Below, piece after piece: positions 35 to 62,700 of a DNA stretch of 64,000 nucleotides; the stretch's first letter is position 1, and each line of letters begins with the position of its first letter. Origin of the DNA: Arenicola marina (taxonomy: Eukaryota > Annelida > Polychaeta > Arenicolidae). Location: contig OZ025255.1 of NCBI GenBank assembly GCA_964019135.1, positions 6,634,001 to 6,698,000 on the forward strand, written 5' to 3'. The notes under the pieces were generated by a model. The model ran no database searches. It was not told where the DNA came from and saw only the letters and a list, made by a program, of their open reading frames with translations. The position numbers and the translations under genes were made by a program.

Positions 35-780
35 TATGGCAGCATCAGCCCGTCAAAAAGCGTGAATTGCGTCGTGTGCCAAATATTATTACTACATACC
101 GCAAATAATTGATTCGTGTTCTAATTCTATTTCATACACGACGGAATTCATTGAGTCGCGACGCAAATCGAATTACTACATGACGCTAAACATTGGTCAT
201 GTCATAATTCGAATTGCAGCTTCACCCCGTCAATTAATGACATGTAGTAAGTCTATAAGCGTCGCGACCCAATCAATTGCGTCATGTATGAAATAAAATT
301 AGAACACGAACCCCGGAATTAACTACACGTAGCAACTCATTTGAGACATAGCGAAACTCGAATTGCGACATGACCCCTGAATAGAAGCATATGTGTTAAA
401 TATTTAGATACACGATGCAGTTCGAATTATGACATAACGCCTGAATTGAGGCATTGCTGTAAATATTTGGGACGTAACGCAATTCGAATTAAGACATAAC
501 GCCCGACTTGAAGCATATGTCTCAAATATTTAGAGACACGACGCAATTCGAATTATGACATAGCGCCTGAATTGAGGCATTGCTGTAAATAGTTGAGACG
601 TAACGCAATTCGAATTAAGACATAACGCCCGAACTGAAAGATATGTCTTACATATTTAGAGACAGAACGTAATTCGAATTATGACATAGCTCCTGAATTG
701 AGGCATTACTGTAAATATTTGAGACGTGTAGTAAATACGACAGATTGACCTATCACAGGTCACCGCGCAAAACATTCCCA
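35..780 (+). repeat. Left terminal inverted repeat with subterminal repeats
   Basis: The first ~320 bp match the far end of the element in reverse complement (positions ~10760-11077). From about 340 to 740 two ~60-bp units alternate, each built around AATTCGAATT plus a methionine-free AT-rich spacer such as GACATAACGCC and TAAATATTTGAGAC. The palindromic AATTCGAATT core recurs at each unit. Such arrays are commonly transposase-binding sites, but that role is inferred here. Confidence 0.85.
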
Positions 781-799
781 TGTCCAGAATAATAACAAA

Positions 800-5795: not shown

Positions 5796-5797
5796 TC

Positions 5798-6130
5798 AGG
5801 TGTGCTGTGTTCTAATGAGCGCTAGTCCTAGTGGTTATGCTTTCGTGCGCGCTGTGTTGTAATGAGCGCTGAGGTATACTGTGTCCTAGTGGTTATGCTC
5901 ATGTGTGCTGTGTTGGAATGAGCGCTGAGGTATATTGTGTCCTAGTGGTTATGCTTTCGTGCGCGCTGTGTTCTAATGAGCGCGGAGGTATACTGTGTCC
6001 TAGTGGTTATGCTTATGTGCGCGCTGTGTTCTAATGAGCGCTAAGATATACTGTGTCCTAGTGGTTATGTTCACGTGCGTGCTGTGCTCTAAAGGGCGCT
6101 GAGGTATACTGTGCTTAAATGGTCATTAAG
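5798..6130 (+). repeat. 61-bp tandem array after the transposase
   Basis: There are about five to six copies of a ~61-bp unit containing CTAATGAGCGCTGAGGTATA and TGTGTCCTAGTGGTTATGC. They begin almost at the transposase stop codon. Copies differ by a few substitutions and drift further at the right edge, as expected for a minisatellite that grew by slippage or unequal exchange. Nothing suggests it is coding. Confidence 0.85.
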
Positions 6131-7214
6131 ATGTGTAGGCATGCTGTGCTCTATATGGTCGTTTGTATGGCTCTAAGTATTATCTATTGTAATTGTAGCA
6201 ACTGGAATGTACTGGAACTGGAATCTTTGGCAAAACATGTAGACACCTGTGTGAAAGTCGTGTGCCCTTTATTTATTTATAAATATGAACCATGAGTGAA
6301 AGTATGCCACATGCGAAATAACGCCACAAGAGAGGGACAAGAGGATGGTAAAGTTTTCTGGAAGACTGACATATTTCTTGGATGAAAGAAGTAATGAACT
6401 TCCCGGTATCTTATGAACCAACTGAAGTAATAATTGTTGAGAATTTCACACAAGTATGCACTATATTATCTATAGCGCAACATTTCGTAACTTGTGTGGC
6501 TGGCGAAGTTGAGGCAGACACTTTATACTTTTCAGTTGTTTATTCCAGAAATAAATGATCTGCAGATAAAAATAACAAAACTAGGTGGGATACCGGTAAG
6601 TCTTACAAGCATTACCAAACTCGATGGGAAAGAGAGTATGTTGAGTAAGAAGTACATAAACATACACACAAGGCTCCTTTGTTTAACACGTCTAATGTCT
6701 CCCTTCAAAAATATGATCTAAACGTACTGCCCTACTATAAAATTACACGGGAAAATAGATCTTTGCCGCCTAGTAAACGACACATCAAGTTAGCAGGGCT
6801 GTAAATTCGCTATATCATATCATTCAGTCCATCCTCTACTCTGGATATAATTGAAGGACATCGTTTTATCCCTCAAAATATCAGATGCAAAATCACAACA
6901 TGGTCTGACCGGTTATCCTCAATAATATCAGTATTAAGCACCTTGTAATCACAAGCACACTTAAACTCTAGATACAATGTTTAATCTTTTAACCAAAATG
7001 TTATAGTGAGTTGTAATCGGCTGAAGATTCATCGAATGAAGACAACAGCGTAAAATGAAATTTGTATCGTAAATTGTATCAATGTGTAATCCCAAAATAA
7101 TTTTACGTTGAACTCTTGATCACCCATATACGGTATAACACCCAAAACAAGCTACCCAATATGCTGGCCATCTCACATCCTCAAGACAAACACTACCCGG
7201 TTTGATCTTGTACT
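6131..7214. other. Gene-free interior of the transposon
   Basis: This is AT-rich sequence between the 61-bp array and the hairpin repeat. Short reading frames (for example 6494-6721) have no recognisable motif. I see no gene, array or element end here. Confidence 0.6.
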
Positions 7215-7380
7215 TATAGAGCGATATACGAAGAAAACAAAATCAGTGATACATGAGGCAAGCAGTGTTCACTATAAACACATATACCGCATATCGGTGG
7301 TCAAGAGTTATATGTGTTTATAGTGAACACTGCTTGCCGCATGTATTACTGATTTAGTTTTCTTCGTATATCGCTCTATA
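7215..7380. repeat. Hairpin (foldback/MITE-like) repeat
   Basis: Two ~72-bp arms (7215-7286 and 7310-7380) are near-perfect reverse complements, starting TATAGAGCGATATACGAAGA and ending in the mirror sequence, with a loop of about 23 bp. Only a few mismatches separate the arms, so it is young or kept alike by conversion. It is probably a small foldback element inserted in the IS3EU interior. No clear target duplication was found. Confidence 0.8.
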
Positions 7381-8010
7381 TCGCTTGGTGTTTAATTTTC
7401 GGCGGGTCGCGCTGGGGGGGGTGTCATACTATGGGCTGTAGCTAAAAATATCGCACGTGAACCTATGTTCTGTTTGTTGTTAAAATAAAGTTGGATACTT
7501 TCTCTATAATTTCCTATGGCCCATATAGTCAAACATGGTTACCGATTTTTTTCTAGCATGGGGTTGAAAATTTGGGTTTTTGCATTACTTAACCTGGGGA
7601 TGGTTTCTATTGGTGTGTAACCTAAATTGCCCGATGAAGGCGCTATATGTTATGCGATGTTGTCCGCTGAAGGCTCGATTGAGCCCGAATTGCCCGCTGA
7701 AGGCGCTAGACGTAGCGCGTCGGGACCTATAGCACATCGAAAAGTAGCGTTCTACTGGCCGCACCCGTCATTATATATCCACCGTAAAACGACTGGAAAT
7801 CCCATCAAACCTGTGCACCTGTATATCACGAAGTCGGGGCCAAGCCCCAGAGTTTTGAAACCAGCTGTAAACGTCCCTGCAAATGCGTTATTCATTCACA
7901 CACTTGAACTATGAGGGTATATATTGGATCCATATAGCCGGGGATTAGGCACGAGAGAAAGCCATATGCACCATTGCATATAAAAACTTCAAAATCCCCA
8001 GGCAGTCCAG
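7381..8010. repeat. Decayed repeat block shared with 30.5-33 kb
   Basis: Positions ~7625-7725 carry a degenerate motif (AATTGCCCGCTGAAGGCGCT) that recurs at 30535-30770 and 32936-33135. Positions ~7900-8000 match 31400-31510 in reverse complement, including AAAGCCATATGCACCATTGC. The block is therefore a fragment of a larger dispersed repeat, inserted before or together with the LINE that follows. The family is unknown. Confidence 0.6.
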
Positions 8011-9820
8011 CAATCCATGTAGTCGTGAGCTCCATGTTAAAATTAAAGCGGTCCCGGTTTGGCTTAAAATTTCTTGATCCAGTTACCGATGATGAAATTT
8101 ATAGCATTATGGGATCACTAAAGAACGGTTCGTCTGGCTGGGATTCCATTGGTCCGAAAATTATCAAAAATATCATTCCTCATTTAACGAAACCGTTGCA
8201 TCATGTTATCAATCTATCATTCTCCCAAGGCTACTTCCCCAACGAATTAAAAATTGCAAAAGTAATTCCAGTATTCAAGGCAGGGGATACGAAGATGTTT
8301 ACCAATTATAGACCCGTATCAGTTCTACCTACTATTCCAAAGATATTTGAAAAGGTAATGTATAATAGACTACTGAATTTTATAAATAAACACCATTTGT
8401 TACATGACCACCAGTTCGGCTTCAGACCCAAACATTCAACGACTTTGGCTTTGATACTACTAGTTGATAAAATATCATCTGCCTTAGATAGGGGGGAATC
8501 GGCAATCGGGATTTTCTTAGATTTTTCTAAAGCATTTGATACTGTTAATCACAATATATTACTTTTAAAATTAGAAAGATATGGAGTCAGAGGCATTGCA
8601 TTAGACTGGTTTAAAAGTTATCTTTTTGACAGGGAACAGTATGTTGAATACGATGGGGCTAACTCCGAGAAATTAAACATAAACTGCGGAATTCCGCAAG
8701 GGTCTGTTCTTGGACCACTTTCATTCCTCGTTTACATAAATGACTTAGCATCTCTGAGTAGCAAACTGTTTAGCATACTATTGGCAGACGATTCAAATTT
8801 TTTTATTACGGGGAATGATATTGAAAAAATGATCCAAACGGTAAACTTAGAGTTGGACAAAGTTAAGCATTGGCTCCAGGTTAATAAATTAACGCTTAAC
8901 CTTAGCAAAACCAAATTTATGATCTTTAAATCCCCACGTAAACAAATATCCATTTTATCCAAAGTACAAATTTCGGGTCATGCTATTGAGCAGGTCTCAT
9001 GCATAACATTTTTAGGGGATCAACTCGATAGTAGCCTGCTCTGGAAAGAACACCTACAATACATTAAAGGCAAGATTGCAAGGGGTTTAGGGGTAATTAC
9101 ACGGGCTAGGAAGGTGTTTACCAAAGATATATTGCGTAGCCTTTATTTTTCATTTGTGTATCCATATCTTTCGTACGCTCAAGAAGTTTGGGGGGCGGCC
9201 TACCAGTCCTATTTACATCCATTGTTTATTTTGCAGAAAAGGGCTGTTCGTATAATTACAGGTGTTAACAAGTATTCTCACACGGAAAATCTGTTTAAAG
9301 AAATTAATATTTTACCTTTGACGAAATTGCATGAATATAGTGTTGTTTAATTAATGTTTAAGCAATACCAGGGCATATTACCTGAACCTATCCAATCTTT
9401 ATTTGTTACGAGGTCTAGCATTCACAGTCATAATACTAGAGGAGCCAAGCTACTACATATTCCAAAGGCTAGAACTGATCATTTTCGCAAATCTATAAGA
9501 TATTCGGCTATTACTTTATTTAATAAATGGTATAGTAAAATAGAATTTAACTCCTCCCTTCACTCATTCAAGAGAACAATTATGTCGTCCTTAGTACTAA
9601 ACTAGTCGAAACTTTATATTTATATCCAATATGCGATACCTGTTTTCACACTAATTCCTTGAGGTAAACAGCCTACTACTGTGGCCCTTTCACGCTTTTT
9701 TTTTTTTTTTTTTTTTTTTATCTGTATAGATCTAGTTGTACTTTATGTTAACATATAAGCTTCGGCTTCTGCTATTGTCAATGTACTATATGTTTGCATA
9801 TATAGTCAATCGCTGGTATC
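8010..9820 (+). mobile_element. 5'-truncated LINE (CR1/Jockey group)
   Basis: A non-LTR retrotransposon fragment lies inside the IS3EU element. It holds the reverse-transcriptase part of ORF2, then a 3' region with a T-run at ~9691-9719 and the sequence TAAGCTTCGGCTTCTGC, a style common in CR1/Daphne-like tails. The 5' end is truncated near 8010-8034. The 3' end near 9820 is approximate, because no clean poly(A) or target duplication could be fixed. There is no endonuclease domain. The clade is judged only from RT style. Confidence 0.75.
8034..9605 (+). pseudogene. LINE ORF2 reverse transcriptase, 3' part
   Basis: This makes cDNA from the element RNA at the nicked target. RT blocks run in order: NYRPVSVLPTIPKIFEKVMY near residue 90, FGFRPKHSTTLAL, FLDFSKAFDTVNH with the first catalytic Asp, GIPQGSVLGPLSFLVYINDL, and LADDSNFF with the catalytic ADD pair. 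A thumb/connection region with LGDQLDSSLLW follows. One in-frame stop at 9348-9350 separates the last ~84 residues (MFKQYQGILPEP...), which continue in the same frame. The start shown is simply the first Met in the open frame; the true N-terminus is missing by truncation. It could not mobilise itself. Confidence 0.8.
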
Positions 9821-10189
9821 TCGAAAACATTCAGTCTTATATGGGCAAATCGACTGTAATATTGCAGGTTTCTGCTCCGGGGATTGAGAGAAAAAAAATC
9901 TTGGCGGCACAAATGCATATGCCTAACTACATGTCGTACCACCTCCCCCTGCCCCCCCCCCCCCCACCACCCGCTCCCCTCGGACCCTTCGGACCCTTCG
10001 GTCAGGCTTCTTCATCCTTGACACGTACCACCTAGTAAAGGAGATCTAAGACAATTTGTTTCATGTCAGGTGTTCATATTTCATGCCACAGCTCCTTTAC
10101 TAATACAAATTTAGAGCCCTTTCCAGCCCCTTCGGTGATTAGACCGACACACAATGATCGTGAGTCATGCAATATGATTGGTTGATGCG
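9821..10189. other. Gene-free stretch before right inverted end
   Basis: It contains a C-run near 9950-9967 and a short GGACCCTTCGG duplication. No gene was recognised. The open frame through here is an artefact of simple proline-coding sequence. Confidence 0.5.
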
Positions 10190-11077
10190 CTACGTCTCAA
10201 ATATTTAAGACACACAAAAGGCTTCATTACGGGCGTTATGTCGCAATTCGAATCGCGTTACGTCTCAACTATTTACAGCAATGCCTCAATTCAGGCGTTA
10301 TGTCATAATTCGAATTGCGTCGTGTCTCTAAATATTTAAGACATATGCTTCAATTCGGGTGTTTTGTCTTAATTCGAATTGCGTTACGTCTCAACTATTT
10401 ACAGCAATGCCTCAATTCAGGCGTTATGTCATAATTCGAATTGCGTCGTGTCTCTAAATATTTAAGACATTGGCTTCAATTTGGGCGTTATGTCTCAATT
10501 GGAATTGCGTTACGTCTCAAATATTTACAGCAATGCCTCAATTCAGGCGCTATGTCATAATTCGAATTGCGTCTTGTCTCTAAATATTTGAGACATATGC
10601 TTCAATTCGGGCGTTATGTCTTAATTCGAATTGCGTTACGTCTCAACTATTTACAGTAATGCCTCAATTCAGGCGTTATGTCATAATTCGAATTGCGTCG
10701 TGTATCTAAATATTTAACACATATGCTTCTATTCAGGGGTCATGTCGCAATTCGAGTTTCGCTATGTCTCAAATGAGTTGCTAGGTGTAGTTAATTCCGG
10801 GGGTCGTGTTCTAATTTTATTTCATACATGACGCAATTGATTGGGTCGCGACGCTTATAGACTTACTACATGTCATTAATTGACGGGGTGAAGCTGCAAT
10901 TCGAATTATGACATGACCAATATTTAACGTCATGTAGTAATTCGCTTTGCGTCGCGACTCAAGGAATTGCGTCGTGTATGAAATATAATTAGAACACGAC
11001 TCAATTATTTGAGGTATGTAGTAATAAAATTTGGAACAGACGCAATTCACGCTTTTGGACGGGCTGATGCTGCCATA
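10190..11077 (-). repeat. Right terminal inverted repeat with subterminal repeats
   Basis: This is the mirror of positions 35-780. The same ~60-bp AATTCGAATT-centred units occur from ~10190 to 10740, with more copies than in the left end, followed by the ~320-bp unique terminal part. The copy-number difference shows unequal expansion after or between transpositions. Confidence 0.85.
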
Positions 11078-11165
11078 CGAAGCCCCGCCCTGCAGACGTA
11101 CGGATCACCGCTGGCGGTCCAGGCGTCGCGCAGACATTTGCGGTCACATCTACGACGCCCATTAG

Positions 11166-41729: not shown

Positions 41730-42139
41730 CAGTGCGCGCCACTTAATCGCACTTTGCTTAATCGCAACTTCCGCTTAATCGCAACAAATTTCAAATCCAA
41801 ACGCCATTTCCTATACATTCCCATGTTAACAACTTCGGTTAATCGCAACGTCGGTAATAGCAAATTCCGCTTAGTACTCGCAACACGAATTTACCTGAAA
41901 ATGGGCGGCAGTTTCGGATAATTGCAAGCTGACACCTTTCTAGCTTTGTTGTTATCGTCGGATTAACATGGTGCACCAACAAATACAAGCCACATGCAGG
42001 ACCAAACAGAAGATGATCTCAGACCTTTTGATCGATTAAGTCCGCAAATCGATTAAACCCCCAAATCCTCAAACACCGAGCTCCTGTATCTGAATACATT
42101 AATAATAACAACTAAAATGTCAAATGATGATCAGTGTTT

Positions 42140-43702
42140 CTGGACTAAAAATTAATGTTGACAAAACTAATGCTATATGGCTTGGGAAGTTTGAACAAGA
42201 AAAACAGAACATATGTCCAGATTTGCCATTGACTTGGGTAAAGGAGTTTCGGTTGTTAGGAATAAGTTTTCATGTTGACTTAAAGAAGATGGTAATGATA
42301 AATTATGAGTCCAAAATTGCCGAATTTGAAAAGATATTGAATGCATACAGTAAACGAAGGCTTTCGCTCCGTGGTCGGGTCACAGTAGTAAAAACTCTTG
42401 CCTTGCCGAAATTGATACATGTGATGCCTGCTCTACCTATGCCGGAAAAGCGTTATCTAGACAAAATTGACGGTGCCATACGAAATTTTGTTTGGAACAA
42501 GAAAAAACCCAAGCTCTCGTTAAATAGAATGGCCCAGTCAATAGAAGAGGGGGGCGTTAACCTTACGCATACAAAATCCATGTTGCAAGCTTTGAAATTG
42601 ACTTGGATTCAAAAACTTATCCGGCAAGATGGAGCATGGCAAGATTTGTTCTGTGATACTATTTGTGGTGAAAAAGTACATTGTTGGGAATTAGATTTGC
42701 ATTCATTAAGAAATTTTATTAAGGTAGAAAACCCATTTTGGGCCGATGTTTTTAATTCCTGGTACTGCTACCGGCAAGTGAGCAAGGATATTGAGATTAC
42801 CCGTAATGTGTTGGAGTATCCCTTGTGGAATACTTATTTTATGACTAATGAAAATGTTATATGTAGAAAGACCGAATTTATCAAGAAAGGTATAGTTTTT
42901 GCTAATGATGTTATTAACGAACAAGGGGAGTTCATGGGCTGGAATGATTTTTGCATAAAGTTTGATATCCGCATAAATTTTGCGGATTTCTACGGGCTGA
43001 TCCATTCTATTCCCAGAGAATGGAAATATGAAATGTTAAGAGGAGGTATAAAGCTAAAATCAGTTGTTTGTAAATTTACGAATCATATAAAGCAGATGAA
43101 ACGTGTGTGCAACGAAACTTATAAAACATTAGTTAAATCACTGACATACGGGCGGAATAATGAGCGTAAATGGTCAGATATTTTAGGTGTACAAATAGAA
43201 AGGGATACATGGAAAACATTATATAAATTACCGGTGAACGCCACTACGGATGAGAGAACGAGAAGTTTTCAGTTTATGATTTTACACAGAACAACCGTAA
43301 CGAATAAGTTCTTATACATGAGTAAAATAGTTAACTCTGATATGTGTGGCTTTTGCGGTAACGAGTGTGAGACGATAGAACATCTATTTTATTATTGTCA
43401 ACCAGTGAAGTCATTATGGTCAGAATTTATAGCTTTGTTTAGAAATCTCACTGAAGAAGACATTGGCACATTCATTTCGGCTCAGACTGTTATGTTAGGA
43501 GTGACAACCGCGCCGTTTTCTCGCCTGCTTAACCATATAATTATCATTGGAAAAAATATATCTATCAGTGTAAATGGGCTCAGGTTACCCCTGTTCTCTG
43601 TGGCTTGATAAATTGTATTAAATATTATTACGATATAGAACAATTTGGAATAACAGAACGATACCGTAGCGAGACAATATTTCTAAGAAAATGGAAACCG
43701 GT
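42140..43702 (+). pseudogene. LINE ORF2 C-terminal half
   Basis: About 500 residues downstream of the RT catalytic core of an L1/Tx1-type ORF2. SGLKINVDKTNAIWLGK near the start follows the palm. Then come LSLRGRVTVVKTLALPKLIH, IRNFVWNKKKPKLS and a Cys-His cluster CGFCGNECETIEHLFYYC that binds target DNA/RNA in such elements. The frame slips near 43553-43558, in an A-run. The other frame then reads KKYIYQCKWAQV...RKWKPV up to the foldback, and the LINE resumes at 55479 with codons for IPLLA and a stop. RT and endonuclease are absent by truncation. Confidence 0.85.
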
Positions 43703-46700
43703 AGTAGTAGAAGCTGCGTCAGTTGAATGTAACTTTCCTTGGGGCTAACGCTTCTTGGGGGTAACGCTTTTGCGGGCGCGCATGCGCGCCGGTCTCATAT
43801 TGCCATCTGGCGCGTGAAGGTTTGTACTTCACGTGTTCACGCCCCCCCCCCCCACACCTCATCCATTGCCCCCCCCCCCGCAACTTGCTAGGCCCCCTTA
43901 CTACACCCTCCCAGCCATGAGAGTGAACGATATTTCACAATCACGGAGTGACGTCATGGATGTGTCATGGCGGGTTAACTGCAAGGACAGTAGTTCCATA
44001 ATTATCTTATCAAATCAGTCGCCCTTTCTCAGCCCCGATACCCCTTTCTCCCCCACCCTCCTAGTCCGACCGATATCCCTACACCTATAGCTGCCACGGG
44101 AGGAGCGGTTAGAGAAGACAATTAATACTTGACAGCTGGTTGCTTATGTTGTAGAGGTCAACCCATTCACCTTTCCGTCCGACGTATTAATTGCTTGCAG
44201 ATGAAACACGACCTGAGGAGGAGAGCATACAGGCGCTTATTAGTATTAAAATAACAGACTGACTCATCGAACAACTGTCATTACTCTTTTCTCTCCCAAT
44301 AAGAGGGCGCCAACCCCCTGCTCCTCATCCACCGACCAATTGCAGATATTACTGCCCCCCGCCCCTCCCTCCTGAAGCCGATCCCCTCCTACCCTCACCC
44401 AACCATGACGGTGAACGGTATTCACAATCATGTAGTGACCTTAAGATGTGTCATAGGCAGATAACTGCAAGGACAGCAGTTCTATTGTAAAATTAGTCGC
44501 CCTCCCTCAGCCCCTTTTCCCCCTCCCTCCTAGTCCGACCGTTTTTCCTACACCTCTTCCGCATTCACCGCGTTCACCGCGTCCCACCCCTATTTAGCAT
44601 GTCGCCCCTCCGTTACTACCACCTATGAGTGAGGGACGTACTCTAGTCGCCCACCCGCCTCCCCCACGCCCGCACCCCAAGGACACAAATACATTAATTT
44701 GAGAAGCTACCCAGACGAGTGGAGTCACCGAAGCGTGTCGCGACGGAAAGCCAGTACTAGTCACCACTGAGCGTGTTGAGCCTTGTCTCTTTTTGTGGGC
44801 TTGAAGGTGAGGGGAGGCGGATGGATATAATGGGTGTGTGCGAAGTTCACCCCAGCTGGCTGTTCATCGGATTTCGAGATGGGGGTGAGCGGGCGATAAT
44901 GTAAAAACAATATTGAATTCAGTTCCCCATTTTTGATTGAGAACATAAGGTCTGACGTTTATAAGTTCTTCTCTGTGCAGTTGGTATTTTTAAATGTATG
45001 TCTTTAATAGGAAGTGATAGACTCTGTTTACTTATAACTAATAGTTTTGTCGGGCATCACGTACGTTGGATGAGATATGGAGTTAGTCTGAAGATTATGA
45101 TGAAGGGGCGTTTCGAAGAGATTGAGTGTTTAATCAGACTACTTTGAGGGTTTGTCGGAGATTTATGTACCCATCAGTTTATACTCGATCCTCTTTTACA
45201 AAGCACGCGGGCCGTTCTTAGACCACCATAATGCGAATGACGGGGTAACTTAGGTTTTTGCACACAGTGAGGGTGCTGTGTGATCAGTAACTCTCAGTAT
45301 CATTTACTGACGGAACATTTCTACCAAAGACAGCTAAAATGAGTCAGATCCCCACCACTGGTTTGTTCCGCTCCCTACATTGAGTTGGCTAGAGAGAATT
45401 CAGTTTCCATACCTACCTTTCCACTTTGTTGTAATTGGTTAGAAAAACAGATGGTGAGAGACGCTTGGGGGAGGGTTGAGTGGTTATGCACGCATGCTCT
45501 ATTTTTAGTGTTGAGGCGATGAGGAGAGGGTGGTTGATGGAGGGGGTTGGGGCGCGTATGCACTATTTTTAGAAACCACATAAATATTAAGAAATGAGGC
45601 GGGTGTGTGGAGGGGGGGTTCCCCTTTCGGAGTTTAGATGCTTGCATTCTCTATTTTTATAAATGATATCAGGGTAGGGAGGAATGAGGTGTTGCTACCT
45701 CTGTGCGTGGTAGTGCTATGATGGTTAAGGTTTATTGGTAACGTTTGATTTAATATGAAACAGTTATGTGCAACATACGGCAATGATAATAGGATTTTTT
45801 TTTTATGTTTCATTGAATTATGAATTAAATTTTGTGCAGCATTCGCATAACTAGAACAACACAATGGTAAAACTATAGCATTATTATATAAGTTTGTGTA
45901 TTAGATGCTTCACAGGCAATCAAGTTTATGTTCTATGTAGCATTCGGGGCAATACTTAGACAAAAGTGAAACGACTATGAAGTATTATGTAAGTTTTATG
46001 TTTCAAATGGCATAAAGTATAAGTTATGTGCAACATGTATGTAGCTCATTAGAAAATTGTGAAACATATAGGTAACATTTTGCATGTTCAGCCTTTCATA
46101 TAGCATCAAGTTTCTATTTTATGCCACATTCGGGGACTTAATAGACAACCGTCAAAGAATACTTATGTATACTATAAATTTCGGTATTTAATGCAAGGAA
46201 GCTTAGGTTTATGTGGCAATAATAAAGCGAATTGTTTCCAGGATGTTGAAGTTATGTATCAACTTACAATGAGTTTACCAACGATTAAGAGAATAACGCG
46301 TTATAGCTGGCCTTGTTATAACTGTGTGGAGACAAATGTGAAAAGAAATGGTATGATCACAGGAATTAGGTCTGAATAATCAGTGATGTTGTCATCTCAG
46401 AGAGGATGCAGCGGACATACATGCGTTTTCTATGTTTGGACAATACCGTATGTTGAGAGGTGAGGAGTATAGAGTTGGGTGGTTAGAGAATAGGTACTAT
46501 GATAGAGAGAATAGGGGCGTGTGTGCACTATTTCTAGCAATGTCAATGTTAGGATATGAGGCGTGTGGGTGAGGGGATTCACCTTTCGGGAGTGGAGATG
46601 TTTGCATGCTATATTTTTATAAATGATATCAAGTTAGGAAGGAATGAGGTGCTGCTACCTATATGCGTGGTACTGTTATGGTTGAAGATGTTAAGACATA

Positions 46701-49602
46701 CTTATAACGTTTTATTTCATTTGAAAGATTTATGTGTAATATACGGCAATGACTTTAGAAATAAATAAGTTCATGTTTCATTAAATTATGAATTAAATGT
46801 TATGCAGCATTCGCATAAGTAGGATCAGAGAATGGTAAAAATATGTAATTATTAAATAAGTTTGTGTATTAGATGATTCATGTGCAATCAAGTTTATGTT
46901 TTATGTACCATTCAGGTCAATACTTAGACAATTGTGTAACGAATATGTTAGTATTCTGTAAGTTTTATGTTTCATATGTCATAAAGTCTAAGTTATGTGC
47001 AACATTTATGTAGCTCATTAGACAATTGTGAAACATAGGTAGCATTCTACGTTTTGCTATTCATATATCATCAAGCTTATATTTTATGACACATTCGGGT
47101 ACTTCATAGACAACCGTGAAAGTATACATATGTATACTATAAATTTCGGTATTCAATGCAAGGGAGCTCAGCTTTATGTAGTAATAATAATGGAGAATGT
47201 TTCCATGATATTGAAGTGATGCATCATCCTACGGTGAACTATGAAATAAAGTAATAATTGTGTATGTATTGCGAGTGAACTTTAAATTTAAACCATGTTA
47301 CACTAAAATGTTTGGTGGAACATAGACATTTTGCAAAGCAAGTGATGTAATTTGGAGTGGGCAGCAGTTTGCCAACGAACAAGCGAATAACAGGCTATAG
47401 GTGTCACTGTTATCATCTGGGATGAGACAAATATGAAAAACAGTATGTTCAGTGTAGTTAGGTCTGAATGATGAGTGACATGTTTAATGAAACATGTAGT
47501 GTTAGGTTTTTTCGATCGAGCATCGCAAGTGGGTTATGATGTATGTAACAATGATATGTTTAGTAAAATAAATATTTTAATTATGTTGAAGTTATTTATC
47601 AGAATACAGTGAACGAAAGTAATAACTTTTATGCATAGCTATTGTACCGGTAGAGTCTCTAGCAGTAATGTAATGTGTAATGTTTTAAAGATCAAATGAG
47701 AAATACTTAGGCAATAAGATATAATTAACAAATCGAATACGAAAGTATTTTGCAAGTTTTATTTTTCATGTTATCAAGTATAAGTTATGTGTTACATACG
47801 TGCAGCTCATTTGACAATCATGAAACGTATGAATAGCATTCTACATGTTTTAGCTTTTATATGTCATCAAGTTTACGTCACATTCGGGATAGACAACCGT
47901 GAAAGAAAAATTTAAGTTTATGTATTCAGTGTTTCATATGTCATGTTTGCGTATTTATGTAACACTCGTGGAACCCGTAGGCAATGATAAAACGAATACA
48001 TGTGCATTCTGTACATTTCTGGACTCAATACCGGTAAGCTTGGGTTGATGTAGTCATGATGTAAAAGATTGTTTCAATTATGTTAAAGTTATGTATCAGA
48101 GTACAATGAACTATGGAATAACGTAACAACTTTTATGTATGACATTCAAGTATACATTAAATGTAAACCATTCTGCACGTGTGTCACGATTGACGTATGA
48201 TGTGTCTGGAGGAACATAGATCTTTTTGCAAAGCGAGTGGTGTAAATTTGGATTGCACTGAAGTTGCCAATTGTAAGAGAATAACCAGCTGTATAGGTGT
48301 CGTGGTTATAATATATGTTGAGACAAATGCGAAAATAAACGGTATGATCAGTGTACGTAGGACGGAAAAATGAGTAACATGTTTAATGTAACATGTAGTC
48401 TTATGTTTTTTTCGATCGTACATGGCAAGTAAGCTGTGCTTAATGTAACAATGATAGGTTTATTAAAATAAAAATTCCATTAAGTTGGAGTTCTTGATCA
48501 ACCTACAACGAACAACCGAAGAAATGGAAAACTTTTGTGTATGAATATTGTATAGTGGCCGAGAAACTAGGTGGAAATGTAATGCGTAATTTGTTTAAGA
48601 TCTAGTGCGACATAACTTGCGTAGTGCAAGTTGAGAAGCTACACAATAAGTTACATGAAGGAGTTTCTGTTAAATTAAGATATAGTCAGAGTAATTAGGT
48701 ATGAATAGCGAGTGATATGTTTAATGAACTCTGTTATATGATTTTGTTTTCAGTTAGCAAAATATTGGTAAGAATAAGCTCTGCTTCCTTTAGTGATGAC
48801 AGGTTTAGTAAAATAACTGTTTAATTAATTTGAAGCTATATATCAACATACAGCGAACGACGGAAGAATGTAATAATTTTTATGTAAAACTTTTGAAGTG
48901 AACATTAAATGTGAATCATTTTGTACGGGTTTGATGATTGATGTGCGGAATGTTTGGTGCCATATATCTCTTGTGGAGCAAGGGATGCAACGCGGATTTA
49001 CACTATCGTTAACCGATCAAAAACGATTGAGTAAATACTTGTCATAGCTGTCGCTTTTATGAGATGTGTTTAAACAAGTATTGAGAGAAGCATTACTCGT
49101 ATACATTTTGTATCGTTAGAGGACCTAAGTGCATATATAATGTCATTTGTTAAAGAACTAATATGAAATAATATGCGTGACATAAGTTAGGGAATAATAT
49201 AAAAAAATACGTGATGGGAACATTGCTTAATTGTCATATGATCAGAATAGTTAGGTTTCGATAACAAGTGATGTGTGAAATGTAACATGTACTGTGACTT
49301 TGCTTCCGGTAAGTCAAATGTTGCGCAATGTAAGTATAAGCCCCGCTTTATGTTGTGATGATAGGTTTAGTACAATAATTGTTTCAAACATGGTGGAGTT
49401 CTATATCAATATACGTTGAACTACAAAAGAAAGTAATAACTTGTAAGTAAGGCATTTCAAGTGCGCATTAAATGTGCACCGTGTTACACGTCTATTCCCA
49501 AATTGTGCGAATGAGTCTCAGGTTGGTTAACATAGAAGACCAATATGCAGGTGTGCATGACGAGTGATTTGTTTAATACAACATGCACTATGACTTTGTT
49601 TC
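43703..49602 (+). repeat. Left arm of the foldback
   Basis: 5.9 kb. The outer ~1.7 kb is GC-richer, with C-runs and the palindromic GCGCGCATGCGCGC (~43776). The rest is AT-rich and built from nested repeats. A ~980-bp unit repeats at ~45520 and ~46460 (AAATGATATCA.G.TAGG). Shorter units carrying TTATGTGCAACAT, and later units carrying TGTATCAACATACAGTGAACG..., recur every few hundred bases. Short frames such as 46191-46379 are repeated in mirror form in the other arm. Confidence 0.88.
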
Positions 49603-51822
49603 AGTGAATGAACTATTGCGCAAGGTAAGTATAAACCCCGCCTTAGATAGGTTGTACAATAAATGCTTCAATCATGGTGGAATTCTAATACTCAACTACA
49701 GCGAACGACAGAAGAATGTAATAACTTATATATATAATATATTTCAAGTGAATACTAAATGTAAACCATACATTTACACGTATGTCGTGATTGATGTGTA
49801 AAATGCTTCGTTGTGCATAGATCTTTTACAAAGCAAATACTATAAACTGGGTTTGCATTACAATTACACAATCGTAAAGTGTTTAAGTAAATATCACACG
49901 ATATGTGTCGTTAACATAATCTATGTGTTTAGTCACGGGTGAAAAATAAACGACACGCATATAAATATTGAACAGGTGAACATATGAAATGAGTTATTTG
50001 TGAACGAACTAATGGGAAATAACAAATGCAACACAAGTTGATGAATCGAATTATAAATTACGTAGAGGAGTTTTAGTTCAGCTAGCATATGATCCGACCA
50101 GTAAGATGTAAATAACCGGTTCTATTGTTGTAATATAACATGTGGTGTGTCCACGCTAAGAGAAAACTGGTTCATGTAGTGATGATAGATTTATTACAGA
50201 AAATGTTTCACTTAGGTTGATGGTATCTCTTAACCAACATTGAATGACAAACGAACGCAGACAACGTATATGTGATAGATTCTAAGTGAAGTATAAATTG
50301 CGAACCATACCATTACGCTTGGCACGATATACGTGTGAAGTGTTCGGGGGCCCATAGCCCTTTTGCAAAGCAGGGGATGTAAATCGGCTCTGCACTGCAG
50401 TTAGCAAAAACTAAACTGATTAAGTAAGTGACACGCTATAAGTCTCCCTATAATGCGTCATTTGCTAAAGCACTAACGTGAAACAGTACGACTAACACAA
50501 GTTAGTGAATCGAATGATAAGTTACGTCTAGGAGTTTCTGTTTAGATAACGAGCAAATGCTCAGAGAAGGTAAGTGTGAATAATGAGCGATATTGTTAAG
50601 GTAACAAGCAATGTTCTTCTCTTTCGAATATGCAATGTAAGTAAGCTCTGTTTTATCTATTCATGATGACTTTATTAAAAGAAATCTTTGAATAACCACT
50701 GAACTTGTGCTGGATGTATCTACGTCAGTAATCAACAAGGGAATGCGTGGTGCAGATCCGACTTTTATGACACCAATCCTTCTTATGAAGTGACGTTTAG
50801 GATCTTTCGACGTAACGATCTATGGGGTAGGCATAATTCACGCCACGACTCAGTGAGTTTATGTGGAGTCGAGCAATAACCGAATTGTCTCATCATCAAC
50901 TATCTGTCTGGTGCGAGGTCTTTCGTCATCGAATTTGTCACGATGTATATATAAGATGCACATCCCGCAGCTTCCGCGGTATGGCAGTCTCTGTAGTTTA
51001 CCGTTACACCACCAAACAGACATACGCGCGGTCTCTGAAAACGAACGAATCGTGTCATCATCTCATTAGTCTCAATGATGGCGGCCCCTCTTCAAAATCG
51101 GGCCTTCTTTCTAACCGAGTACGTTTACTTTCATTGCACCTTGTGACTGAAGTCTTTATAAACCCGCTGCTTAACAGAGAAATTACAAAGTTCATAACGT
51201 GAAAACATAAAGTGTGAGTGTAAGCATTGACCACAATTTTAAAATATGCCAACGAAACCAACGAGTGAGGGATAATTTAACACTTGGCAATTATTTGTAA
51301 CAAGTTGACTCCTATTGAATGAAGTGATGTGCTTCCCTAACGAAAATATTTATGAAACCCGTTTTAAGTGAAACATTATGTTAAATACTGAACATCGTTT
51401 GATAATGTAAGACTTTCGGAAAAGTACAATAATTTGTCTAAGTGACGAAAAATTGGTTTGAACCATGCATACCATTATTATCTAAAAATGGAGTCAGTCT
51501 GTAGAGGTTTACTGAAGCAGCAGAAGCAGAAATACGACTCTACGAACAACTGTAACTATAAGTATCGTAAAAATAAGTTTGTGCAATCACTTATGTTTCA
51601 TTTGTAAACCATTTATTATTGATGAAGGCAATTTTATGTGACGCGTGATTCCTTGTGCGTAAGTCAGTCACAGTAGTGACGCATTACATGGTTCATATGT
51701 AACGCATGTCACTTATGTACGCGTTATCAACGAATGTTCATTTCAAAGGTTTCTATTGTATAACTTAGGCACGCGTTTCGAGTTCTTTTGCATGCATCAA
51801 GTATATTTATACAAAAGGAGTC
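49603..51822. other. Loop of the foldback
   Basis: A 2.2-kb unpaired centre. Up to ~50750 it continues the arm-type repeats (ACAAATGCAACACAAGTT, GTAAATCGGCTCTGCACTGC). From ~50820 to 51200 the composition is GC-richer with a TATATAAG at ~50949. Two short frames there (50861-51202) show no known domain. Confidence 0.7.
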
Positions 51823-54800
51823 GAAACAAAGTCATAGTGCATGTTGTATTAAACAAATCACTCGTCATGCACACCTGCATATTGGTCTTCTATGTTAACC
51901 AACCTGAGACTCATTCGCACAATTTGGGAATAGACGTGTAACACGGTGCACATTTAATGCGCACTTGAAATGCCTTACTTACAAGTTATTACTTTCTTTT
52001 GTAGTTCAACGTATATTGATATAGAACTCCACCATGTTTGAAACAATTATTGTACTAAACCTATCATCACAACATAAAGCGGGGCTTATACTTACATTGC
52101 GCAACATTTGACTTACTGAAAGCAAAGTCACAGTACATTTCACACATCACTTGTTATCGAAACTTAAATATTCTGATCATATGACAATTAAGCAATGTTC
52201 CCATCACGTATTTTTTTATATTATTCCCTAACTTATGTCACGCATATTATTTCATATTAGTTCTTTAACAAATGACATTATATATGCACTTAGGTCCTCT
52301 AACGATACAAAATGTATACGAGTAATGTTTCTCTCAATACTTGTTTAAACACATCTCATAAAAGCGACAGCTATGACAAGTATTTACTCAATCGTTTTTG
52401 ATCGGTTAACGATAGTGTAAATCCGCGTTGCATCCCTTGCTCCACAAGAGATATGTGGGACCAAACATTCCGCACATCAATCATCAAACCCGTACAAAAT
52501 GATTCACATTTAATGTTCACTTCAAAAGTTTTACATAAAAATTATTACATTCTTCCGTCGTTCGCTGTATGTTGATATATAGCTTCAAATTAATTAAACA
52601 GTTATTTTACTAAACCTGTCATCACTAAAGGAAGCAGAGCTTATTCTTACCAATATTTTGCTAACTGAAAACAAAATCATATAACAGAGTTCATTAAACA
52701 TATCACTCGCTATTCATACCTAATTACTCTATCATAGTACCTATTCTCTAACCACCCAACTCTATACTCCTCACCTCTCAACATACGGTATTGTCCAAAC
52801 ATAGAAAACGCATGTATGTCCGCTGCATCCTCTCTGAGATGACAACATCACTGATCATTCAGACCTAATTCCTGTGATCGTACCATTTCTTTTCACATTT
52901 GTCTCCACACAGTTATAAGAAGGCCAGCTATAACGCGTTATTCTCTTAATCGTTGGTAAACTCATTGTAAGTTGATACATAACTTCAACATCCTGGAAAC
53001 AATTCGCTTTATTATTGCCACATAAACCTAAGCTTCCTTGCATTAAATACCGAAATTTATAGTATACTTAAGTATTCTTTGACGGTTGTCTATTAAGTCC
53101 CCGAATGTGGCATAAAATAGAAACTTGATGCTATATGAAAGGCTGAACATGCAAAATGTTACCGATATGTTGCACAATTTTCTAATAAGCTACATACATG
53201 TTGCACATAACTTATACTTTATGCCATTTGAAACATAAAACTTACATAATACTTCATAGTCGTTTCACTTTTGTCTAAGTATTGCCCCGAATGCTACATA
53301 GAACATAAACTTGATTGCCTGTGAAGCATCTAATACACAAATAATAATGCTATAGTTTTACCATTGTGTTGTTCTAGTTATGCGAATGCTGCACACAATT
53401 TAATTCATAATTCAATGAAACATTAAAAAAAAATCCTATCATCATTGCCGTATGTTGCACATAACTGTTTCATATTAAATCAAACGTTACCAATAAACCT
53501 TAACCATCATAGCACTACCACGCACAGAGGTAGCAACACCTCATTCCTCCCTACCCTGATATCATTTATAAAAATAGAGAATGCAAGCATCTAAACTCCG
53601 AAAGGGGAACCCCCCCTCCACACACCCGCCTCATTTCTTAATATTTATGTGGTTTCTAAAAATAGTGCATACGCGCCCCAACCCCCTCCATCAACCACCC
53701 TCTCCTCATCGCCTCAACACTAAAAATAGAGCATGCGTGCATAACCACTCAACCCTCCCCCAAGCGTCTCTCACCATCTGTTTTTCTAACCAATTACAAC
53801 AAAGTGGAAAGGTAGGCATGGAAACTGAATTCTCTCTAGCCAACTCAATGTAGGGAGCGGAACAAATCAGTGGTGGGGATCTGACTCATTTTAGCTGTCT
53901 TTGGTAGAAATGTTCCGTCAGTAAATGATACTGAGAGTTACTGATCACACAGCACCCTCACTGTGTGCAAAAACTTAAGTTACCCCGTCATTCGCATTAT
54001 GGTGGTCTAAGAACGGCCCGCGTGCTTTGTAAAAGAGGATCGAGTATAAACTGATGGGTACATAAATCTCCGACAAACCCTCAAAGTAGTCTGATTAAAC
54101 ACTCAATCTCTTCGAAACGCCCCTTCATCATAATCTTCAGACTAACTCCATATCTCATCCAACGTACGTGATGCCCGACAAAACTATTAGTTATAAGTAA
54201 ACCGAGTCTATCACTTCCTATTAAAGACATACATTTAAAAATACCAACTGCACAGAGAAGAACTTATAAACGTCAGACCTTATGTTTTCAATCAAAAATG
54301 GGGAACTGAATTCAATATTGTTTTTACACTTCGCACACACCCATTATATCCATCCGCCTCCCCTCACCTTCAAGCCCACAAAAAGAGACAAGGCTCAACA
54401 CGCTCAGTGGTGACTGGTACTGGCTTTCCGTCGCGACACGCTTCGGTGACTCCACTCGTCTGGGTAGCTTCTCAAATTAATGTATTTGTGTCCTTGGGGT
54501 GCGGGCGTGGGGGAGGCGGGTGGGCGACTAGAGTACGTCCCTCACTCATAGGTGGTAGTAACGGAGGGGCGACATGCTAAATAGGGGTGGGACGCGGTGA
54601 ACGCGGTGAATGCGGAAGAGGTGTAGGAAAAACGGTCGGACTAGGAGGGAGGGGGAAAAGGGGCTGAGGGAGGGCGACTAATTTTACAATAGAACTGCTG
54701 TCCTTGCAGTTATCTGCCTATGACACATCTTAAGGTCACTACATGATTGTGAATACCGTTCACCGTCATGGTTGGGTGAGGGTAGGAGGGGATCGGCTTC

Positions 54801-55472
54801 AGGAGGGAGGGGCGGGGGGCAGTAATATCTGCAATTGGTCGGTGGATGAGGAGCAGGGGGTTGGCGCCCTCTTATTGGGAGAGAAAAGAGTAATGACAGT
54901 TGTTCGATGAGTCAGTCTGTTATTTTAATACTAATAAGCGCCTGTATGCTCTCCTCCTCAGGTCGTTTTTCATCTGCAAGCAATTAATACGTCGGACGGA
55001 AAGGTGAATGGGTTGACCTCTACAACATAAGACACCAGCTGTCAAGTATTAATTGTCTTCTCCAACCGCTCCTCCCGTGGCAGCTATAGGTGTAGGGATA
55101 TCGGTCGGACTAGGAGGGTGGGGGAGAAAGGGGTATCGGGGCTGAGAAAGGGCGACTGATTTGATAAGATAATTATGGAACTACTGTCCTTGCAGTTAAC
55201 CCGCCATGACACATCCATGACGTCACTCCGTGATTGTGAAATATCGTTCACTCTCATGGCTGGGAGGGTGTAGTAAGGGGGCCTAGCAAGTTGCGGGGGG
55301 GGGGGGGCAATGGATGAGGTGTGGGGGGGGGGGCGTGAACACGTGAAGTACAAACCTTCACGCGCCAGGTGGCAATATGAGACCGGCGCGCATGCGCGCC
55401 CGCAAAAGCGTTACCCCCAAGAAGCGTTAGCCCCAAGGAAAGTTACATTCAACTGACGCAGCTTCTACTACT
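51823..55472 (-). repeat. Right arm of the foldback
   Basis: 3.65 kb, the reverse complement of the left arm and collinear with it from the terminus inward, lacking some internal blocks. The 90-codon frame at 53581-53853 is identical in translation to its mirror at 45375-45647, showing high arm identity. Confidence 0.88.
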
Positions 55473-55785
55473 ACCGGTCATCCCTCTTCTAGCATGATCC
55501 CTCTCTTGCACAGTTGTATATTCTTAACAATATAACATATATTCTGTCTGCCTGATGTCACAACTTGCTGTACGATTATGGAAATAAAAAAAAATTAAAA
55601 AAAAAAAAAGATCAGTGTTTTATAATGAATGGTTAGTGTGCACTTGTGTCTATGATGCGCATATAACCCCGATACGTGTACATACATGAACATGTAGTGT
55701 GTTCCGACCCGTCAATATCGCCAACTTCGGTTAATTGCAACTTTTTTGCTGACAAATGGAAGTTACAATTAACCGAAGTGCACTG

Positions 55786-59700: not shown

Positions 59701-62700
59701 AGCGCCCGGTTGGCGTCCTTTTGTCGCGAGGGAGAAGAGTTATGACAGTTGTTTGATGAGTCAGTCTATTATTTCGATAGTAATAAGCGGGCTTTATGCT
59801 CTTCACCTCAGGTATTATTTATCTGCAAGCCATTAGTACGTCGGCCGGAAAGGTCAATGGGTTAACCTCTTTAACAACCACCCGTGGGTATTTCATTATA
59901 CCTTCCCCTCCTAAATAACTAGGCGTGGCAGCTGGTTACTATGTGGTGGCAGTAAAATTCACTGTTGTATATGATACGAGGCGTCATTGTGTACTGATGG
60001 AAACATAAGAAGCTTGTGTTATAGGTCCACCATTCCCCCTGCCCCCCTTTCTCTCCCCCATCTATTCACTGACGATTCTGAACACGTGACTCCCATGCTA
60101 CACCTGCCCTCTTCGTCAACGATGCAGTTTTAAAATCATAATGGAGTGAATGGTGACGTCATTGACATTTAGTCATCTGTTTGTTCAGGACCTATATAAA
60201 ACGGGAGAGATGAGTTAATTGGTTGTTTCTTTATGTTGGCAACCCCTTGACCTCTGTAGCCGACGTTCTGTTTGCTTTTATATGCATCCAAAAGAAGGTA
60301 GGGAGGGTGAAGGATATAACATCAATCGCCTATGTCATTGCTATACACGTTCTTGGGGAGTGTCTGTGGGTTTTTTATTGCATTGGAGTTACCAATGTTA
60401 CGAGCACCCCACATCCGACGGCACGTTTAAACGAGTTTGGGGAAAGAGCGACTGGCTCCCTCCACCTCCATACACCATACACTCACAATATTCCTATTAG
60501 GTTATTTTGCTGTTACTCCGTCAAGTGAAAACTATTATGGTGCATGACCGCTTTTCTAGTTCATTAAAAGAAGCAGTTGCATTTGCTTGTGACATCTGCA
60601 ACCAACGTCGCATTCATATAACTCATACACCGTTAAAGGAATTATTCTGTAAGTTTGAACATTGTTACTCGTTAAGTCAGTGTAAAGTAACATATATGTT
60701 AAAAATGTATTGTATTGAACTTTATTTGTTTTTATTGCACTTTTAAAAGCAGCTAAAGTAAAAACACATACTAACATAAATTTTACCAACAATAACCGTA
60801 TCCATCCATGTCAAGGAACGTAGTCAACAATTAACTTTAGCGTAATTTAAATAACTCACAAATTTCATATGTCACCACGTCACAACTCATTCGTAGGTTT
60901 CAACAAGACTTTAAACCATTTGCAAAAGTGATTATAAAAGTGAATGCATCAACTTTAAAAATGATATTTTACGTATTGTATGTATGAAGTATTCGTTTTC
61001 CGTCACGTGTTTATATATTTTTTAAACTATCAAGTGTTACAGTAACACAATAAGTTATGCATGTATCATATATTTGTGAAACATCCATTTACCTTATTGC
61101 AATACGTCTAGGTTTACACATACACTTACAACTATGCAACTAGTCTTGTAGAATGTCATGTTTCATAAAGTTAACAAGTTATTGAATCAACAGATTGACG
61201 CGTGTTACGCGTGCGTGTATCGCGAATGTGAACTGAATTAAAAGTCGTCATCACGTTAACGAATTAGGAAGTGAGTATTAACACTGCCATGTAATTTTTA
61301 GTGAATAGCATTTGCGGTAAAAGAACTTCGCTATTGAAATAGCGTTAGCAACAGGCAAGTACTAATTCCACACAATCATGACAAGTTCTTAAATTTTATT
61401 TAGTGAACATTGCAATTCCAAAAACAACGATATTTGTGGTGACAACATATCTGCAATGAAGTAAGAGAGAAGTAATTAGACATAAAAAATAGCGAAGCCA
61501 ACGTGATGTATGTGCGAATTTAATGAATTGAATTCACCGGTATAAACAGATACATTCTAAACTACGGTGCGTAGAGAAGTATTGAATAGACTCATGACTG
61601 CCAAGAGTTTATCAAATGAATAACATTTGGAACATAACACAATATATGGATAATATAAACCTAATACTTTTGATTACAATAAAACTCACGCGAGTATTCT
61701 GAGAGAACATGTTGTAAACGGAATAAATCATCAGTTTGTAACCATACAAAGAGATGAATGAAACATATCATTTACTTTATCTCGTAACATACATTCTAAA
61801 CTTAGAAAGAGGATCGTATTAAGTAGTTGTCATAGCAAACACTAACATAAACATAACGAATGAGTTATCTGTCTTTTTTGGTATATCTTGGTGCAATGTA
61901 TAACGTATCTAACTCGTGTTTTCTCTCTGCGTAGAAGGTATGTCAAAACTGGGAGTATGTATCCTCTTTTTTTTTTATACATCAAGAAGTTAAACAGATA
62001 GAATAGAATTCTCATGAGTTGTGATGTCAAGGACAATGAATCAGTATTCAGTTTGGTTTTATTGCACATATCCCAAAACAGTTTTCTTACTCTTACTCAA
62101 CCAGATTATGTAGGAATGTATGGTAATGTAATTTTTAGAACCCTTAACTTCCTACATGAATTGATACTTCTAGTATCTAATTAATCTTACCTTAAGCTAT
62201 CCTGAAAGAAATTTCAGGGTCCACTCGTCTCCTGCGAGAATGTAACAATATGTTTAGTTGATTTATAACATTTAGGTTTTATCTACATGAAACGAATGCT
62301 TATTTTTTTTGTTTTTTAAACTATTAACATTTGTACTGAGTTTAACTCATTTTACTTACCACCCTCTTTCCTCTGGCGCACAGTAAACCGTTATACACTT
62401 ACACCTATGACTAGTTACAAATGGAAGTATTAATAAAGTTAACAAGTTATTGAATCAACAGATTGACGCGTGTTACGCATGTGTATATCGCGAACATGAA
62501 ACGTTTGATCCGCAAGTGCCATCACGTATGATATGTTAACTGGTTGGGTGGACACATGTGAAACCAAAAGGTAGAATTCTGTCAGTTACATGCCGTCATC
62601 GAGTTTGTTACATTCGTGTAATTTGAAAGACAACGCAGAAGAAAGATGTCACTTTTTGTATTCAACATAACATCAAGTTTATACTTAATGTAACATGTGT

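Follow-up and report, generated by a model that had tools for sequence, protein, structure and literature searches.

A 64-kb window of the genome of the annelid Arenicola marina (C8:6634001-6698000; the assembly comprises 867 Mb in 762 contigs) harbors, at positions 43703-55472, an insertion built largely of two giant inverted arms, and this locus raises the question of what such an element is and how it comes to have arms that are so alike. The original prediction, made from the sequence of the window, described a gene-free, non-autonomous foldback element with a 6-bp target-site duplication, perhaps of an undescribed giant class. It was right about the element, which is a real, inserted, non-autonomous foldback; its view of the affinity as unknown does not stand, since the ends, the duplications and the PolB-bearing relatives point to Polintons, and it missed this kinship, the coding partners and the full-size form. 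The element appears to be a degenerate copy, devoid of genes, from a family of giant palindromes derived from, or closely related to, the Polintons/Mavericks, and we assign a probability of about 0.7 to the reading in which this palindromic Polinton-kin family renews itself from a single arm, is inserted by a Polinton integrase and decays on one side, the copy described here borrowing its polymerase as well.

Self-alignment confirmed the inverted arms, the mirrored ends and the ACCGGT flanks. The left arm occupies 43703-49602 on the plus strand (5.90 kb) and the right arm 51823-55472 on the minus strand (3.65 kb); they pair as 43697-46515 with 52719-55478 (2,821 columns, 96.9% identity with gaps counted) and, further inside, as 48688-49602 with 51823-52730 (98.5%), the main-arm blocks being 98-99% identical when gaps are left out. 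The arms differ by 32 substitutions, including 4 at the loop edge, by small indels, and by a 2,184-bp stretch of the left arm (46504-48687) which is left unpaired by a deletion in the right arm. The termini read AGTAGTAG...CTACTACT. Chance does not account for kilobase-long arms in a family of many copies. Stop-to-stop frames in the interior all stay below 150 aa (the longest has 121 aa), the best Pfam match of eight frames reached only E 0.057, which is not credible, and an Rfam scan of the window gave no result at the gathering threshold. The element is gene-free as far as tested.

ACCGGT flanks the element on the left (43697-43702) and on the right (55473-55478). As this hexamer is its own reverse complement, one copy of the element alone would fit a duplication of 6, 4 or 2 bp, or none. 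The insertion lies in the 3' tail of a LINE repeat, downstream of the 3' part of a LINE-type ORF with a zf-RVT domain (42109-43608, plus strand; identified by profile match and repeat copies), and the tail resumes at 55473 for about 137 bp. Among the other matches scored for this right flank (best 40 of 555 candidates), 37 of 39 cover the stretch at 96-99% identity, and the remaining two cover another part at 86%. All eight empty LINE copies fetched contain a single ACCGGT, reading ATGGAA-ACCGGT-CATCCC, and match the joined flanks at 325-333 of 331-339 aligned columns. Furthermore, 15 other loci (14 independent insertions) carry perfect 6-bp duplications, judged by eye, of 14 different 6-mers. 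The single ACCGGT of the empty sites and the differing 6-mers elsewhere prove the 6-bp duplication that had been predicted and exclude a CCGG duplication of 4 bp (Ginger1-like), one of 2 bp, or none. Altogether, 17 loci were examined for ends; at one of them, C13, the left end was absent from the 1 kb fetched, and the 16 with both ends (15 independent insertions, 15 different 6-mers) all showed AGTAGTA...TACTACT termini and a perfect 6-bp duplication. Within the first 40 bp, the 20-30 bp that follow the invariant AGTAGTA of the 16 loci fall into several block types (e.g. GAAGCTGCGTCAG, AAGAAGAAGTCAG, GAGAGGGGCCCAAACG and GGAAGGGGCACGATTTG), both arms being alike within each element seen.

The genome search with the terminal 150 bp that had been proposed along with the prediction found that the element is not the only copy: there are at least 40 matches (best 40 of 321 candidates), many of them as inverted pairs 6-17 kb apart, and the AG..CT ends, the 6-bp duplications and, for the element itself, the empty sites were all borne out. 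In this and our other genome searches only part of the candidates was scored (40 of 321, 42 of 994, 40 of 500, 40 of 96 and 40 of 555), and the counts are therefore lower bounds. Nine more end pairs were fetched and, together with the element described here, all ten had AGTAGTA ends and perfect 6-bp duplications (ACCGGT, AAAGGA, TATATG, CACAAG, ATTGTG, CCTATC, TACATG, ACCGTG, TTCATA and GCTGAG), with arm matches of 0.28-8.1 kb that were 96.9-99.7% alike and total sizes of 5.9-16.7 kb. Copy C17 tracks the left arm of our element at 98.7% up to the end of the arm, where its center is a nearly loopless palindrome, TATACTTGATGCATGCAATGCATCAAGTATA. In copies c4 and c6 both arms are complete, at approximately 8.0-8.1 kb each. 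The full-size form is a palindrome of about 16 kb, two arms of about 8.1 kb joined at a conserved imperfect hairpin (the "tip"), in the order 6-bp duplication, AGTAGTA end, arm, tip, mirror arm, TACTACT end and 6-bp duplication.

The full arms and tips of C17, c4 and c6 rule out arms of 5.9 and 3.65 kb with a loop as the native form; the unequal arms and the 2.2-kb loop are decay. On an arm axis of 8,089 bp, the right arm of the element lacks 2805-4960 and 5872 to the tip, about 2.2 kb each. The apparent loop (49603-51771, plus strand) corresponds in C17 to the apical part of the arm, from axis position 5872 to the tip, and looks like a loop because its right-arm partner was deleted. It includes a tip-proximal segment (51123-51668) that is 69% identical in the PolB-bearing palindromes c3a and C17b. 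Next to the loop a remnant of the tip is preserved at 51772-51827 (CGCGTTTCGAGTTCTTTT / GCATGCATCAAGTATATTTATACAAAAGGAGTCGAAAC), about 15 bp of the apex being gone. Large one-sided gaps were also found in c2, c3b, c19, c9b and c10, their ends all different and none common to two elements. Symmetric changes were found as well: a difference at 3768-3865 is common to c2, c10, c3b, c6 and c4, the extra bases at 116-132 of c4 recur in c9b, and c9a has a symmetric deletion of its own (1258-1837).

An assembly or haplotype artefact, namely an inverted join, might be suspected, as gaps of 200 N lie near the centers of c9a, c10, c6 and c4, and in C17 the sequence gives way, about 85 bp beyond the center, to an unrelated GC-rich tandem repeat, with no second arm. 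However, an artefact would hardly account for target duplications at 16 loci with matching empty sites, nor for arms that differ by substitutions and indels. In c4 and c6, moreover, the gap is bordered at either end by the tip, similarly oriented, which means that two contigs each read through the tip. We regard the probability of this explanation as close to negligible.

Two further loci deserve mention. At C6:33001062-33119243 there are three terminus pairs on the same strand (2.25 kb apart) at a spacing of about 58 kb, apparently a tandem duplication carrying an element. At C14:7626690-7627196 no more than about 390 bases separate a tip from a terminus of the AGTAGTA type; this very short deletion derivative would be useful for defining the minimal parts needed in cis.

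How the two arms stay alike was addressed by comparing them within and between elements. Over about 1.8 kb of the terminal region (43703-45588, plus strand, in our element), the arms of one element were 98.5-99.8% identical in all ten cases (one over 264 columns only), and arms of different elements 77-99% (290 comparisons, median 91.2%). In a tree of the arms, which omits c9b_R as too short, left and right arms were sisters in the nine elements with usable arms (9/9); in a larger tree of the first 700 bp that included coding copies, c9b and C13 not being entered, this was so in 12 of 13 single insertions. The sequences thus suggest that the arms of one element are nearly always sisters, as long terminal repeats (LTRs) are.

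This pattern could also arise if the family were an ordinary transposon with long terminal inverted repeats (TIRs), both arms being copied at each move and ectopic gene conversion keeping resident arms alike; conversion is common in inverted repeats. A natural experiment bears on this idea. The palindromes C17b and C17c (C17:18136468-18151029 and 18423123-18437698) are one coding insertion copied by segmental duplication, with flanks 99-100% alike. Over 4,996 columns, 17 sites group left arm with left and right with right, none groups the arms by locus and 14 behave otherwise; three shared gaps likewise keep left with left and right with right. This 17:0 grouping indicates that the arms of this one insertion were not homogenized while resident there, and neither the 17 two-by-two sites nor the 3 gaps show conversion between arms. 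The large one-sided deletions compared are all private, and an asymmetric tip persists despite otherwise like arms, which also argues against conversion. In favor of it, one arm of the C17b/C17c pair holds a short tract resembling another lineage, a sign of some exchange, and the arms of one element, C20b, are not sisters. On balance we consider this explanation unlikely. Because the arms are sisters and were not homogenized in the duplicated insertion, symmetry is probably re-established in the course of transposition, with a one-armed hairpin as the likeliest source.

The genes that the element lacks may be sought in its relatives. The coding palindrome c3a shares with it the terminal 1.9 kb (86% identity over 43718-45588), the tip and, at 69%, the tip-proximal segment. 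In its middle c3a has long frames with C2H2 zinc fingers and, judged by eye, the exonuclease and polymerase motifs of a family B polymerase. In our element the place of PolB is occupied by a G-rich non-coding interior (45535-50684, plus strand) of degenerate tandem repeats, 67-81% alike at offsets of about 0.1-0.97 kb and multiples thereof. Over 45000-54000 of the window, several kilobases of such non-coding repeats, the GC skew rises to +0.30 in the left arm and falls to -0.27 in the right. The palm piece of a sister copy had 461 protein relatives, with PF03175 in 22 of 120 among the matches listed and two relatives, from Pinctada and Patiria, named DNA-directed DNA polymerase; this piece also contains an endonuclease-like stretch (phrog_13076, E 1.8e-7). 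Its Vsr-type sequence stands just ahead of the palm motifs (L034:1-1575, minus strand), and C2H2 zinc fingers are found at the start of PolB. The related palindromes carry a Polinton-type PolB, presumably protein-primed, in both arms, and the polymerase in one of the two is often cut short (c3a, C17b).

A 1,085-aa part of PolB gave at least 53 genomic matches, merging to at least 41 loci (best 42 of 994 candidates), with at least 11 distinct convergent inverted pairs no more than 30 kb apart and no divergent pair among the matches scored; the script returned 12 pairs, two of them sharing a partner, and in one pair the genes are 24 kb apart. The ends were fetched for seven pairs and six had AGTAGTA and perfect duplications (GCTGCG twice, in the segmental duplicate, CAGAGC, CCCATC, ATGGGT and CTAGTT). 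For a 463-aa piece of PolB in six sequences, the ratio of nonsynonymous to synonymous substitution rates (dN/dS) was 0.18-0.25 in 11 comparisons between the main palindrome lineages and 0.13 between the left arms of the duplicate pair (3 changes); between opposite arms of C17b/C17c it was 0.71-0.79 (9 nonsynonymous and 3 synonymous changes in C17b). By these ratios PolB is under purifying selection between palindrome lineages, and it seems to matter to the palindromes while they spread and not after insertion, the latter judged from few changes. No capsid, protease or ATPase gene was found with Pfam in the element or c3a, and NCBIfam gave nothing over the cut-off on three frames. Searches of phage records, viral contigs (with the pattern and PolB), genome contigs (with the terminal pattern) and PDB sequences (with one PolB piece) were of no use. 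Outside the family studied, convergent PF03175 polymerase matches lie 2 kb apart at C9:1305222 (plus strand) and 1307847 (minus strand), possibly a second palindromic PolB lineage.

The tip connects the coding and non-coding copies. The same unequal sequences flank the apex in C17b and C17c, which are coding, and in c9b, c17, c6 and c4, which are not, so that the hairpin keeps a one-sided bulge; c3a keeps a single tip flank. The folding energy of the tip is -44.8 kcal/mol against a mean of -11.2 for shuffled sequences, a difference partly expected of any palindrome. Among the best 40 of 96 candidates, and counting by eye, the tip was found between the genes in at least 7 of the 11 convergent PolB pairs and no more than 4 kb 3' of PolB at 11 or more of the 18 unpaired loci. 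The 630 bp adjacent to the tip are 96.5% identical as DNA between C17b and c3a, with 4, 7 and 2 differences at the three codon positions, in contrast to a synonymous divergence (dS) of 0.28 in PolB. The coding copies have a tip-proximal ORF of 208-211 aa here, and the differences show no third-position excess; by this measure the region is probably not a gene and would be a conserved cis region or a recently exchanged one.

These features bear on the possibility that the palindromes arose one by one, each through a separate snap-back accident of a linear Polinton and each a dead end, without any self-propagating palindromic lineage. Protein-primed replication exposes single strands able to fold back, defective adenovirus genomes with long inverted terminal repeats are comparable, and the arm of the coding copies is laid out as one Polinton end plus PolB, mirrored. 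Accidents of this kind, however, would not be expected to turn at the same place, whereas the same tip is central in coding and non-coding copies; nor would they explain symmetric indels common to several elements or the purifying selection on PolB between palindrome lineages. At one canonical Polinton locus, described below, no tip was present among the matches listed (best 40 of 96 candidates). Already weakened by these results, the snap-back explanation is in our opinion distinctly improbable.

The canonical Polinton, at C19:14.249-14.265 Mb, has AGTAGTATAGAG ends, a GACGTT duplication and inverted ends of about 1.1 kb (a 1,216-column alignment with 87.5% identity includes about 50 bp of palindromic host flank). 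It encodes PolB and an integrase with rve and Chromo domains (E 1e-12 and 3e-7), with a weak adenovirus-protease match below the cut-off. Its PolB shares 38-43% identity with the PolB pieces from the palindromes; zinc fingers are present in it too, and its alignment takes in part of the endonuclease-like stretch. No DNA match between this Polinton and the palindromes was found beyond the PolB stretches and a 170-bp motif. Identified by sequence matches elsewhere, this motif lies at 44147-44315 (plus strand) of the window in our element, upstream of PolB in the Polinton (L051:927-1096 and 1353-1513) and in host DNA at window positions 59708-59876; it is a dispersed repeat, or else a promoter module that they share.

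Among known systems the Polintons/Mavericks are the closest in ends ((AGT)2..(ACT)2), 6-bp duplication, size and, in the coding relatives, PolB. One study gives (AGT)2//(ACT)2 as the commonest ends, 6 bp as the duplication, and 46-1,447 bp as the inverted repeats of intact vertebrate Mavericks (PMC8097293). In contrast, the palindromes have arms of up to 8.1 kb, near-perfect symmetry and a conserved hairpin tip; in those examined no integrase or Polinton gene other than PolB was found. The element itself has the 6-bp duplication and the AG..CT, (AGT)2//(ACT)2 termini, and neither PolB, an rve/chromo integrase nor a capsid, protease or ATPase gene was found in it, which makes it a Polinton-related non-autonomous variant and not a Polinton proper. 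Foldback (FB) elements and Galileo resemble it in their very long, internally repetitive inverted arms and non-autonomous copies. FB belongs to the MULEs and Galileo to the P superfamily, and their duplications measure 7-9 bp (8-9 bp in the FB/MULE type); the palindromes, unlike these, have 6-bp duplications, AG..CT ends and coding kin with PolB.

Could the element be a foldback of another superfamily with 6-bp or CCGG duplications, such as IS3EU/GingerRoot, Ginger1 or a MULE-type FB? Taken alone, the CCGG within ACCGGT would suit Ginger1, and an IS3EU-like element with a 6-bp duplication, as in IS3EU/GingerRoot, is present in the same window. However, published descriptions give TA..TA termini for IS3EU, occasionally TG..CA for GingerRoot (PMC10045372), and for Ginger1 a CCGG/CCGT 4-bp duplication, TGTNR ends and TIRs of 40-270 bp (PMC2836005). 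Our element has AG..CT ends, AGTAGTA in full, and a 6-bp duplication fixed by the empty sites, the family has 15 different 6-bp sequences at 15 insertions, and its coding relatives have PolB, no cut-and-paste transposase having been found; IS3EU/GingerRoot and Ginger1 have transposases of their own. This origin is very improbable. The neighboring element, at 35-11077 of the window, has 693-bp inverted ends that are 94.5% alike (TATGGCAGC..GCTGCCATA, TA..TA), a CGAAGC duplication (29-34 and 11078-11083) and a disrupted integrase frame of the rva_4 type (PF24764; 4926-5795); by these features it is classed as an IS3EU-type element with an RVT-bearing ORF inside.

For the palindromic Polinton-kin family we propose the following mechanism. 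What moves would be a single arm of about 8 kb sealed at one end by the hairpin tip, or else one strand able to fold back into that shape. Copying by PolB from the open end round the tip would give an inverted dimer, both arms being restored from one, and a Polinton integrase acting in trans would then insert the two open ends with a 6-bp stagger. The gene-less element described here would borrow both enzymes and be mobile only with help; after its insertion, one-sided deletions beside the tip would have left unequal arms. One-sided deletions are expected of hairpin cleavage at palindromes. There are viral parallels: parvoviruses and poxvirus concatemer junctions combine hairpin-ended genomes, rolling-hairpin copying and inverted dimers joined at an imperfect hairpin, and in snap-back defective adenovirus genomes, replicated by a protein-primed PolB, both halves come from one strand. 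In contrast to these, the palindromes are integrated dimers with an integrase-type duplication, and no sequence relation is claimed.

Several observations weigh against this proposal. The hairpin intermediate is inferred, no extrachromosomal hairpin having been observed. The arms of C20b do not group together, C20b_L joining C17d (92/73). In C17b/C17c, 15 of 16 polarized differences are in the right arm, and 5 of these 15 form a 60-bp tract resembling the C6 lineage, which means that exchange between elements occurs and that the arm clock is not clean. The polymerase frame of c3a is broken and its left arm holds the first part only, the C260-C6b comparison gave a PolB dN/dS of 0.43, 18 of the 41 PolB loci are unpaired (best 42 of 994 candidates), and four of the 11 pairs (C6b, C20b, C3:39.83 and C3:55.3 Mb) had no tip among the matches listed. 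No integrase was found in the frames of at least 140 aa of c3a or in the longest frames of each C17b piece, so that integration in trans is deduced from the matching ends only. The canonical Polinton was examined at one locus only; its termini and those of the palindromes are unlike beyond AGTAGTA, a motif that could persist by common descent without a shared integrase.

A bolder version of the proposal, which we hold only tentatively and at rather less than even odds, is that the palindromes form a separate class of mobile elements. They would be one-gene PolB hairpin replicons, their polymerase including the inserted endonuclease-like domain and zinc fingers, which integrate as the inverted dimer of a unit of about 8 kb that is capped by a hairpin, spread as palindromes, renew themselves from one arm and use a Polinton integrase in trans. 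The gene-less copies, reduced to terminal region, tip and spacer DNA, would then be satellites of satellites. Palindromic or non-autonomous Polintons were absent among the open-access literature matches listed, Repbase being outside this search.

Palindromes as long as 16 kb should be highly unstable, so that a family which moves in this form, and whose copies then erode at the tip, would document in nature how hairpins are processed and repaired. These loci also cause trouble in assembly, as the 200-N gaps in c9a, c10, c6 and c4 illustrate, and may escape repeat annotation. To our knowledge, ideas on how Polintons replicate come mainly from the genes they carry; in this genome the imprint of a replication intermediate seems to be preserved in the chromosome. 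With arms that start out alike and diverge once inserted, a DNA transposon would have an LTR-like clock, and the behavior of the arms makes the copying of self-synthesizing transposons testable.

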